Source: Streptomyces sp. Tue 6430
GTDB lineage: Bacteria; Actinomycetota; Actinomycetes; Streptomycetales; Streptomycetaceae
DNA length: 64,000 nucleotides
Reading direction: 5' to 3'
Assembly (NCBI GenBank): GCA_021568835.1
Contig: JAKGSH010000010.1
Location: 4,402,001 to 4,466,000, forward strand
The notes below the pieces were generated by a model, which searched no databases, was not told where the DNA came from, and was given only the letters and a program-made list of their open reading frames with translations. Positions 10,477-45,384 of this stretch are shown here, one piece after another (position 1 is the stretch's first letter; each line of letters begins with the position of its first letter). A program made the translations under genes and the position numbers.

Positions 10477-10650
10477 CCCGCCATTGTCGAACACCGCTCG
10501 GGCGGAAACCCGCCGTGCCCACACCGGCGATGATCCATTCCCGCTCTTTCGGGTAATGGCACGAACACACTGGGTGATGGAAGGCTTGCCCGTGAGAGCA
10601 GTGCGTCGGAGCAGTACGGCTCCGGCGTATCACCGGGAGGGCAATTCTCT

Positions 10651-12057
10651 ATGTCGGTAGGCGAAGAAGTCCGCGCTGAGCAGGGCAAGCCGCAGCAGAG
10701 CCTCGGCACCGCGGCCGCGCGGAACCTGGCCACCACCACCAAGTCCGTACCGCAGATGCAGGAGATCAGCTCCCGCTGGCTGCTGCGGAACCTGCCCTGG
10801 GTCGACGTGCAGGGCGGCACGTACCGGGTGAACCGGCGCCTGACGTACGCCGTCGGTGACGGCCGCGTCACCTTCGTCAAGACCGGAGACCGTGTCGAGG
10901 TCATCCCCGCGGAGCTGGGTGAGCTGCCCGCGCTGCGGTCCTACGAGGACGAGGACGTCTTCTCGGAGCTGGCCTCCCGCTGTCGGCAGCGGGAGTACGC
11001 GCCGGGCGAGGTCGTCGTCTCCTTCGGCAGCCGGACCGACAAGGTCTACCTCCTCGCGCACGGCAGGGTCGAGAAGGTCGGCACCGGCCCCTACGGCGAC
11101 GACCAGGTCCTCGGGGTCCTCGCCGACGGCGCGTACTTCGGCGACCAGGCGCTGCTCGACCCGGACGCCATCTGGGAGTACACCGCCCGCGCGGACACCG
11201 CCTGCACCGTGCTGATCCTGTCGCGCCAGGACTTCGAGCAGGTCGCCGAGCGCGCCGACTCGCTGGCCGAGCACCTGCGCGGCCTGCGCTCGATCCCCGC
11301 GCAGCCGACCAACCGCTACGGCGAGAAGGCCGTCGACCTGGCCGCGGGGCACGCCGGTGAGCCGGACATCCCGCACACCTTCGTGGACTACGAGGCCCGG
11401 CCGCGCGAGTACGAGCTGAGCATCGCCCAGACCGTCCTGCGCATCCACTCCCGCGTGGCCGACCTGTACAACCAGCCGATGAACCAGACCGAGCAGCAGT
11501 TGCGGCTGACGGTCGAGGCGCTGAAAGAGCGTCAGGAGCACGAGCTGGTCAACAACCGTGAGTTCGGCCTGCTCCACAACTGCGAGTACGACCAGCGGAT
11601 CCAGCCGCACGACGGCGTGCCGGGCCCGGACGACCTCGACGAGCTGCTCAGCCGCCGGCGTGGCACCAAGATGCTCCTCGCCCACCCGCGCGCGATCGCC
11701 GCGATCGGCCGCGAGCTCAACAAGCGGGGGCTCGTCCCCGAGACGATCGACGTCGCCGGCAACCGGATCCCCACCTGGCGCGGGGTGCCGATCTACCCGT
11801 GCAACAAGATCCCGGTGACCGAGGCCCGCACCAGCTCGATCATCGCGATGCGTCTCGGGGAGCAGGACCAGGGTGTCATCGGCCTGCGCCAGTCCGGCAT
11901 CCCGGACGAGATCGAGCCGAGCCTGTCCGTGCGGTTCATGGGCATCAACGAACAGGCCGTCATCAAGTACCTGGTCACGGCCTACTACTCGGCGGCGGTG
12001 CTGGTTCCGGACGCGCTGGGCGTGCTGGAGAACGTCGAGATCGGCCGCTGGCGGTGA
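10651..12057 (+). CDS. Family 2B encapsulin shell protein (EshA-like) with inserted cyclic-nucleotide-binding-like domain
   Basis: A 468-residue protein of the EshA type, now recognised as an HK97-fold encapsulin of family 2B that assembles protein nanocompartments. Residues 1-35 form an N-terminal arm. The start of the shell fold includes [24 protein letters not shown] cyclic-nucleotide-binding-like beta-roll follows at about residues 100-205 ([11 protein letters not shown], then [12 protein letters not shown]). The main HK97-like shell part runs from about 225 to the end, with [22 protein letters not shown], a [15 protein letters not shown] helix and [11 protein letters not shown]-like strands near the C-terminus. 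A GGAGGG precedes the ATG by 10 bases. The next gene encodes a polyprenyl synthase, the usual cargo class for one 2B subgroup. The arginine that normally binds cAMP phosphate is not obvious. Confidence 0.92.
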
Positions 12058-12166
12058 CCTCACCCGTGCGGACGCCGTGTCCCCGCCCACCCGGGCGGGT
12101 ACACCCAGGGGGTGCGCGCGGGGCCACGCATCCGCCGCCGTGCGCGGACCCGGCGAGGGGGACTCG

Positions 12167-13290
12167 ATGACCGAGTACGTGACGCGGACCAGACCGCATC
12201 CCGGCGGGGCACGGGGGAGGGGGAGGGCCGTTCCGGGCCGGACCGACAGCGGCCCCGACGCGCTCGACGGGCACGAGGCGGCCGCGATCCTGGAGGAGAC
12301 CCGGGGGTTCGTCGACCCCGTGCTCCGTGCGGCGATCGACTCGCTGCCCGGCTCGATGCGGCGGATCTCGCTCTACCACTTCGGCTGGGAGCACGCGGAC
12401 GGCACACCGGCCGCGGGCAACGCGGGCAAGGCGATCCGGCCTGCGCTGGTGCTCGCCGCGGCCGCCGCACTCGGCGGCCCGGCGGCCGGGACGGCGGCTC
12501 TCCCGGCGGCCGCCGCCGTCGAACTGATCCACAACTTCACGTTGTTGCACGACGACGTGATGGACCGCGACACCACCCGCCGGCACCGGCCCACCGCCTG
12601 GACGGTGTTCGGTGACGCCGACGCCGTCCTCGCCGGGGACGCGCTCCACGCGCTCGCTCTCGGGATGCTCGCCGCGCATCCGCATCCGGCGTCCTCGGCC
12701 GCCGTCGCCCGGCTCGCGGACTGCGTGATCGAGCTCTGCGCCGGCCAGCACTCGGACACCGCCCTGGAGAAGCGGGGCCCGGCGGAGGTCACCCTCGACG
12801 AGGTGCTCGCCATGGCCGAGGCCAAGACGGGGGCCCTGCTCGGCTGCGCCTGCGCCCTCGGCGCGCTGTACGCGGGGGCGGCCGGGGAGGACGTCGAGGC
12901 GCTGGACGCGTTCGGCCGTCAGGCAGGGCTCGCCTTCCAGCTCATCGACGACGTGATCGGCATATGGGGAGACCCGCGGCACACCGGCAAGCCGGCCGGC
13001 GCCGACCTGGCCGCCCGCAAGAAGTCCCTGCCGGTGATCGCCGCACTCGGCTCCGGCACCCCGGCCGCCGCGGAACTTGCGGAGCTGTACGCGTCCCCCG
13101 CGAGCAGGGGGACGACGTGGAGCGCATGACCCTGGCCGTCGAGCGGGCCGGCGGCCGGGAATGGGCCCAGGAGCAGGCGGCGGACCGCATGGCCCGGGCG
13201 GTTTCCGAGCTGGCCCGCGCCGTCCCGGACCCGGAAGCGGCGGGCGGTCTGCTGTCCCTGGCGGAGTTCGTGACGCGCCGCAGCCTGTGA
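12167..13290 (+). pseudogene. Polyprenyl diphosphate synthase, probable encapsulin cargo (single-base frameshift near 13095-13099)
   Basis: Isoprenyl diphosphate synthase that condenses isopentenyl diphosphate with allylic primers. The first Asp-rich motif is LLHDDVMDRDT at about residue 125; the second is LIDDVIGIWGD, with Gly in place of the last Asp, a common variant. The GKAIRPAL basic motif is present. The first 45 residues are Gly/Arg/Pro-rich and look disordered, as expected of a cargo-loading segment. The frame breaks at a five-C run (13095-13099). Restoring one C joins ...AELYAS to PREQGDDVERMTL and gives about 374 residues ending at TGA 13290. The start is ATG 12167 after GGGGGA. 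The gene lies 109 bases downstream of the shell gene. Confidence 0.85.
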
Positions 13291-13340
13291 GGGGGAGGTC
13301 CTCACCGAGGCGGTCCTCGCCTCTCGCAGTCCCCGGACCT

Positions 13341-13377
13341 CCGGAACCGTACGGCTCCTGACTCCGTACGGTTCCGG
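13341..13377. terminator. Terminator after the encapsulin/polyprenyl synthase unit
   Basis: A 14-bp perfect stem (13341-13354 with 13364-13377) and a 9-base loop, 50 bases after the synthase stop. It supports shell and synthase forming one transcription unit. Confidence 0.8.
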
Positions 13378-13518
13378 TGGTCCGGTCCGGCGGGCCCCGC
13401 GCATCCCCACGGCGCGCGGGACCCGCCTCTTCGCGTGCGGGGCCCGCGCCCAGGACCCCGGTCATGCGGAATGCCTTCTCCCACTTATCGCGGTGGCCGG
13501 TCCGGTCCGGGGAAACGC

Positions 13519-44131: not shown

Positions 44132-45384
44132 ATGCGGAAGATACTCGTCGTCGGAGCCGGCCAGTCCGGCCTCCAGCTCGCCCTCGGCCTCCAGTCGCAC
44201 GGGTACGAGGTCACCCTGATGTCCAACCGGACCGCGGACGAGATCCGTGCCGGCCGGGTGATGTCGACGCAGTGCATGTTCCACACGGCCCTCCAGCACG
44301 AGCGCGACCTCCAGATCAACTTCTGGGAGCAGCAGGCCCCGAAGATCGAGGGGCTCGGCGTCTCGGTGGCGGCCCCCGGTTCGTACGACCCGGGACCGAC
44401 CCAGCGCGCCATCGACTGGGTGGGCCGGCTCGACGGGTACGCGCAGTCCGTCGACCAGCGCGTGAAGATGGCCGGCTGGATGGAGACGTTCGCGCAGCGC
44501 GGCGGCCAGCTGGTGATCCACGGCGCGGCGGTCGGCGACCTCGACTACTTCTCCCGCGCCTACGACCTCGTGCTCGTCTCGGCGGGCAAGGGCGAGCTGG
44601 TGCACATGTTCGGCCGCGACGCGTCCCGCTCCCCGTACGGCGAGCCGCAGCGCGCCCTCGCGGTCGCCTACGTGCACGGCGTGGAACCCCGCCCGGAGCA
44701 CCCGGACATGGAGGCGGTCCGTTGCAACCTGGTGCCCGGGGTCGGCGAGATGTTCATCATGCCGACCTTCACCACCTCGGGCCGCGCCGACATCCTGTTC
44801 TGGGAAGGCATACCCGGCGGCCCGCTGGACGTCTTCAAGGGCGTCAAGGACCCGTCGGAGCACCTCGCCCTGACCCTGGAACTCATGAAGAAGTTCCTCC
44901 CCTGGGAGTACGCGCGGGCCACCAAGGCCGAGCTGACCGACGCCGGCGGCACCCTCGCCGGCCGCTACGCCCCCACCGTCCGCAACCCGGTCGGCCGCCT
45001 CCCCGGCGGGGCCTGGTGCTGGGCGTCGCCGACGTCGTCGTCGCCAACGACCCGATCACCGGCCAGGGTTCCAACTCCGCGTCCAAGTGCGCGGCCTCCT
45101 ACCTCGCCTCGATCCTCGAGCAGGGCGAGAAGGAGTTCGACGAGGCGTGGATGCAGGCGACGTTCGACCGCTACTGGGACACCGCCCGGCACGTCACCAA
45201 GTGGACGAACGCGATGCTCGCCCCGCCGCCGGAGCACGTCCTGGGCCTCATCGGCGCGGCCGGCGCGCTCCAGCCGGTCGCCGACCGCTTCGCCAACGGC
45301 TTCAACAACCCCGCGGACTTCGAGAACTTCTTCTACGAGCCGGAGAAGACGGCCGCCTACCTGGAGACGGTCGCCGGAGCCTGA
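44132..45384 (+). pseudogene. Styrene/indole-monooxygenase-like FAD enzyme in the conservon operon (single-base frameshift near 45008-45011)
   Basis: Flavoprotein of the StyA group (group E monooxygenases), which epoxidise alkenes with FADH2 supplied by a separate reductase. FAD-binding motif: ILVVGAGQSGLQLALGL at residues 4-20. Later segments include FHTALQHERDLQINFWEQQ and, after the break, ANDPITGQGSNSASKCAASY, the FAD-contact helix. One missing G in the run 45008-45011 separates GRLPGG from LVLGVADVVV; restored, the protein has about 417 residues. It starts at ATG 44132, 13 bases after cvnD, so it is probably cotranscribed. No StyB-type reductase is adjacent. Confidence 0.85.

Follow-up and report, generated by a model that had tools for sequence, protein, structure and literature searches.

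Results

The shell gene, the synthase gene and their surroundings

The window analyzed here, a stretch of 64,000 nucleotides from Streptomyces sp. Tue 6430, carries on its forward strand a gene for a family 2B encapsulin shell protein of 468 aa (10651..12057), and a polyprenyl diphosphate synthase gene starts at 12167 on the same strand, 109 nt past the stop codon of the shell. In a profile search, the shell protein matches NCBIfam NF041163 over residues 17-466 with 767 bits (cut-off 400). It combines an SrpI-like HK97 capsid domain (residues 216-466, 11296..12048, forward strand; PF19307, 453.7 bits) with an inserted domain of cNMP-binding fold (residues 114-201, 10990..11253, forward strand; PF00027, 67.3 bits), in agreement with the family and the fold named in the original prediction. 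The closest solved chains are 9bhu (E = 7.9e-197), 9bix (E = 7.1e-188) and 9bje (E = 6.1e-184), and the latter two, judging by their titles, are presumably the two-component family 2B shell of S. lydicus. An AlphaFold model of the shell built on 24 close orthologues was poor (mean pLDDT 50.3). The nearest relatives of the shell among the matches listed are from named Streptomyces. The assembly to which the window belongs (10 contigs, 85.5% complete) shows two matches to the shell query at E values up to 0.001; because the second one covers only the cNMP-fold part (residues 81-197, 27% identity), a single encapsulin shell was found in this assembly.

The first reading frame of the synthase (12167..13129, forward strand) has 320 codons and is ended by a frameshift. 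It matches positions 1-271 of the 334 positions of NF041169, the NCBIfam model for the polyprenyl transferase cargo of family 2 encapsulins, starting at synthase residue 38 and scoring 424.6 bits, which for this broken gene is below the cut-off of 450; PF00348 is matched with 201 bits. The C-terminal residues, about 60 in number, follow in a different frame (13105..13290, forward strand), as seen both from a match to NF041169 positions 274-333 (56.2 bits) and from a DNA alignment with ten relatives. Thus, the next gene is indeed a polyprenyl synthase as originally predicted, but the assumed single open frame up to 13290 is not present. In the ranking with NF041169, the next best model was the GGPP synthase IdsB model, below its own cut-off, and from this ranking the enzyme, an all-trans polyprenyl diphosphate synthase, probably makes a C20 (geranylgeranyl) product.

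Upstream of the shell gene, a block of 27 bases forming an imperfect inverted repeat (TGATCCATTCCCGCTCTTTCGGGTAAT, 10531..10557, forward strand) is strongly conserved when the window is aligned with 25 relatives, selected for having the nearest shells and sufficient upstream sequence, and is a candidate promoter or operator. The region 10534-10650 folds better than its shuffles (z = -3.25). In the shell-synthase intergenic gap (12058..12166, forward strand) the fold is no better than in shuffles (z = -0.56), and a terminator scan listed no terminator-like site on the forward strand between 10450 and 13600, which bears out the claim that no terminator separates the two genes. The strong terminator claimed to follow the synthase holds in part: a strong hairpin is found at 13335..13383 on the forward strand (-45 kcal/mol; z = -4.77 for the 66 nt of 13335-13400), but it has no U-tract and does not appear in the terminator scan. 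On the opposite strand of the shell gene, positions 10690-11189 match Rfam RF02735 (Sernc350, a Saccharopolyspora antisense RNA) with 124.9 bits, the gathering score being 50; this match may come from mere coding conservation.

The locus, which lies on the chromosome, belongs to the polyprenyl-synthase type of family 2B encapsulins and is probably the eshB locus of Streptomyces. From synteny, we take SCO5249-SCO5250 of S. coelicolor to be the presumed orthologous pair, and SCO5222-5223 (epi-isozizaene synthase and P450) presumably correspond to the matching pair found here about 25 kb upstream. SCO5249 is eshB and is up-regulated in development (PMC3878966), SCO5250 is named an isoprenoid-pathway gene and is raised on glucose (PMC7494193), and SCO5249 is given as a possible AtrA target (PMC13170358); no AtrA binding motif was given in the literature text searched.

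Conservation of the pair in Streptomyces

To survey the genus we used 151 Streptomyces genomes, the window's own included, with E values up to 1e-225 for the shell and up to 1e-95 for the synthase. The shell is present in 117 genomes, the synthase in 115, and both in 112. In all 112 genomes with both, the synthase lies next to the shell on the same strand with match edges within about 660 nt, as read by eye from the listed coordinates. Similarly, among the matches listed, all 103 relatives have the shell upstream of the synthase with both on one strand (match edges from -1 to 865 nt), and G038, G041, G043, G046 and G049, which belong to a second family within the order, show the pairing as well. 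Both family assignments and the conserved adjacency are thus direct readings of the sequence, and the genus-wide counts of the pair, its adjacency and the genomes lacking one partner are new here.

Five of the 117 genomes with a shell have no synthase (G006, G074, G122, G160 and G176), and none of these shells contains a stop. In G006, G122 and G160, the site of the missing synthase is flanked by the D-cysteine-desulfhydrase-like and DHFR-like genes; in G176 the D-cysteine-desulfhydrase-like neighbor alone was found, and in G074 neither. G122 (L198:5727-6065) bears, beside its intact shell, an in-frame synthase remnant of 112 codons, in which the N-terminal extension and the start of the domain are fused to the last 50 residues. 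With a query of ten synthases, nothing better than E = 0.05 was obtained in G006, G074, G160, G176 or G010. In a quick shell tree, in which G074 and G010 are long branches and G006 was entered twice, G160 pairs with the synthase-bearing L056 and G176 with L140, whose genome (G030) bears the synthase; both pairings have starred support, and G122 adjoins L045 and L118 (support 82). The pairings of G160 and G176, together with the scar in G122, indicate that the synthase was lost at least three times.

A synthase without a shell was listed for three genomes. In G149 the shell is cut by the contig end and in G123 the contig ends within the synthase; G099 (L204) is a real case, in which the synthase stands between both usual flanking genes, the stretch gives no match to the shell, and the synthase is nearly devoid of an N-terminal extension.

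Other partners were also found beside related shells. Three of the 117 genomes carry a second shell (G075, G076 and G134). Those in G075 and G076 (75% identity) adjoin a 2-MIB-type cyclase (NF041167, 503 and 504 bits, cut-off 400), with a GPP methyltransferase also at the G075 locus, and the one in G134 is close to a contig end. The shell of G010 (L155:7507-11039), 72% identical with that of the window, is divergently oriented from a geosmin-synthase-type cyclase, which scores 812 bits with NF041168, below the cut-off of 1200. The G010 cyclase contains LTGVLGTSAA, which is near the published targeting motif of terpene cyclases. The shell outlives the synthase in several independent losses, and related shells stand beside 2-MIB-type and geosmin-type synthases; it is possible, and we propose it only tentatively, that the shell has a job of its own and that its cargo is exchangeable. 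If so, the natural strains with one partner would be ready-made tests of the purpose of encapsulating a prenyl synthase.

The N-terminal extension and cargo loading

The original prediction gave the synthase a probably disordered N-terminal extension of 45 residues. About 33 residues, rich in Gly, Arg, Pro and Ala, precede the conserved GHEAA block (12167..12265, forward strand); residues 1-45 include 7 G, 6 R, 4 P and 6 A. Counted up to the anchor used for all N-termini, the extension in the window comprises 32 residues. We compared 101 N-termini, leaving out L103 as well as L026 and L088, which have no anchor. In the 70 with a recognized start, the extension ranges from 8 (L100) to 87 residues (L056), and it has only 8-15 residues in the shell-adjacent orthologues L100, L104 and L107; for the other 31, up to 60 upstream residues were used, some of which may be translated noncoding sequence.

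No general N-terminal loading motif was found across the 101 N-termini. Of these, 17 contain an ERRxPIG-like pattern, compared with 0.06 on average in shuffled sequences, a contrast to be read with the relatedness of the sequences in mind; the pattern was rejected as a common loading motif because it was picked after viewing the sequences and is absent from most of them. The GLGT element reported for terpene cyclases is found in 0 of the 101, and in PMC8346489 the encapsulin-linked polyprenyl synthases likewise yielded no conserved targeting motif. Moreover, a paralogue in the same genome (L144), with no shell of its own in the assembly, has a possible low-complexity extension of about 46 residues, which indicates that an extension by itself does not mark a cargo. 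An N-terminal extension serving as a conserved loading tag in every member thus appears unlikely from these alignments. As to the general premise that family 2 shells package enzymes through disordered segments, loading via a disordered N-terminal domain has been demonstrated for the family 2A cysteine desulfurase (PMC8049743). For the polyprenyl synthase, loading via a disordered N-terminus is predicted, and the idea is already published for this cargo.

These observations bear on whether the synthase is a cargo at all. It could be a neighbor sharing regulation alone with a shell that holds some other or distantly encoded cargo, as might be expected from the shells without synthase (5/117), the synthase without shell in G099, the terpene cyclases adjoining related shells in G010, G075 and G076, the lack of a general N-terminal motif, and the literature searched, in which no demonstration of cargo status was found for the polyprenyl-synthase class. 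We consider this rather unlikely in view of the adjacency in 112 of 112 genomes and in a second family of the order, and of the packaging of an adjacent enzyme, the cysteine desulfurase, by other family 2 shells (PMC8049743).

The break in the synthase gene

Aligned with ten relatives at the DNA level, the window lacks a single base within C-rich sequence immediately ahead of the frame change. The exact position of the missing base is aligner-dependent, and the remaining gaps nearby are multiples of three. A wider comparison comprised 104 distinct rows including the window, obtained from 150 loci after dropping duplicates and those below 300 bits; its relatives were drawn largely with the synthase query and include the best 80 of 570 confirmed loci. 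Among the matches listed, the synthase is unbroken in 103 of 103 relatives: 102 are open through the site, and the row of L103, which began ahead of its start codon, proved open when re-read. A programmed frameshift was rejected on the same ground, the relatives' synthases being unbroken.

To see how often genes are split in this assembly, we compared 264 kb (G000:C2:4202001-4466000) with two relatives, using a filter stricter than that of a 60-kb comparison. Genes of the relatives are split in the window genome in 14 of 151 (G013) and 18 of 166 cases (G009), in contrast to 1 of 143 (G013 in G009) and 3 of 150 (G009 in G013) in the controls. In the reverse direction, ORFs of the window genome are split in 7 of 143 cases in G013 and 6 of 157 in G009. 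All these counts include some overlaps and fusions and give rates for comparison rather than exact numbers. In the 60-kb comparison, the genes split in the window were 2/38, 1/22 and 3/48 against 1/26, 1/35, 0/21, 2/31, 0/36 and 1/34 in controls between relatives, so that an excess is unclear at this scale.

Profile models were run on ten G009 proteins that are split in the window genome; four had a match, three of these above the cut-off, and TypA, with the break inside the GTPase region, is among them. A SigE-type protein is split ahead of its domain, which is perhaps a matter of the start site. The epi-isozizaene synthase gene (L156:2609-3723, on G000:C2), some 25 kb upstream of the shell gene, also lies in two frames, and its albaflavenone-type P450 partner (L156, 3720-5090) is intact. 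Within the window, a styrene-monooxygenase-like gene (44132-45381) holds a second clear frameshift candidate near 45010.

The excess of split genes over 264 kb relative to the controls, and the unbroken synthase in all 103 relatives among the matches listed, make it most likely that the break is an error of an indel-rich assembly and not a property of the organism. Alternatively, the synthase of this strain may have been broken recently beside an intact shell, as in the synthase-less genomes. Such losses do occur, as the 5 of 117 sampled shell genomes without synthase attest, and the window alone shows no clear excess of split genes. We nevertheless give this alternative a small chance: about a tenth of the relatives' genes are split over 264 kb against 1/143 and 3/150 in the controls, a single base within C-rich sequence makes the difference, and the family match continues through the remainder of the synthase, its final 60 or so codons included. 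An assembly error thus remains the preferred explanation, and the apparent abundance of indels calls for caution with other findings drawn from this assembly.

The inserted domain and cyclic nucleotides

The phosphate-binding cassette of cyclic-nucleotide domains has a canonical motif with an arginine. In alignments of the window's shell to cyclic-nucleotide kinases, no Arg is found at residues 165-179 in any register. The pocket columns, read in 105 alignment rows (104 genes, with G006 present twice), show Trp175 in 105/105, Glu176 in 102/105 and Arg180 in 105/105 rows. The loss of the cyclic-nucleotide arginine is therefore plain, and a cAMP-gated shell was rejected because this arginine is missing from the pocket. 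Despite the clear cNMP-binding fold (PF00027), it is very improbable that cAMP or cGMP gates the shell via the inserted domain: beside the absent arginine, the invariant Trp175 and the nearly invariant Glu176, cyclic nucleotides were not bound by a related domain of family 2B, as stated in PMC12407261. The idea of a ligand-responsive shell had already been published.

Discussion

A family 2B shell with the adjacent synthase as its predicted cargo, the break in the synthase being most likely an assembly error, is the explanation we consider likely. It is supported by the matches to NF041163 and NF041169, the solved relatives, the adjacency in 112 of 112 genomes, the unbroken synthases of the relatives, the excess of split genes, typA and the epi-isozizaene synthase gene among them, and the assembly's completeness of 85.5% in 10 contigs. 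It is weakened by the 5 of 117 shells without synthase and the one synthase without shell, by extensions of only 8-15 residues in some shell-adjacent orthologues, by the unclear excess of split genes in the 60-kb comparison, and by a synthase score below the NF041169 cut-off.

By analogy with 9bhu, 9bix, 9bje and other family 2 systems, the shell protein is expected to assemble into an icosahedral particle of 60 subunits (T=1, roughly 28 nm), which would most likely enclose the synthase as its predicted cargo. The inserted domains would sit outside the shell above two-fold pores, a geometry described in PMC12407261, and substrates would pass these pores beneath the inserted domains to reach the enclosed enzyme. 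The loading and any effect on catalysis would likewise be as in other family 2 systems.

The pairing itself was thought to be unusual. The pair does exist, but the literature already describes it as a frequent layout in family 2B: a polyprenyl diphosphate synthase gene is reported as the commonest neighbor of family 2b shells (PMC8049743), and PMC8346489 counted 900 operons of this kind, of which 888 are from Actinobacteria. The literature searched, mostly without subscription journals and bioRxiv, yielded no characterized synthase-loaded 2B shell and no answer as to the purpose of polyprenyl-synthase encapsulins, a pair present in 112 of 151 Streptomyces genomes. The useful additions made here are the indel warning, the list of genomes with one partner and the evidence against a universal N-terminal loading tag.

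Among known systems, family 2A SrpI has a similar HK97 domain (6x8m, E = 3.5e-83) but, unlike the shell in the window, lacks the inserted domain and takes another cargo, the cysteine desulfurase, whose 225-residue loading domain has no counterpart in the window's synthase. The two-component shell of S. lydicus (PMC12407261) belongs to the same family as the shell described here (E = 7.1e-188 and 6.1e-184); it consists of two shell proteins and is of the xylulose kinase type, whereas one shell gene was found in the window genome. The closest likeness is to the family 2B polyprenyl transferase operons of Actinobacteria, which also have the cNMP-fold insertion and an adjacent synthase with an unannotated N-terminus. 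The extension in the window, of about 33 residues, is shorter than the reported 50-100, and the gene is frameshifted in the assembly; apart from these two points, there is no substantial difference between the window and the published operons.
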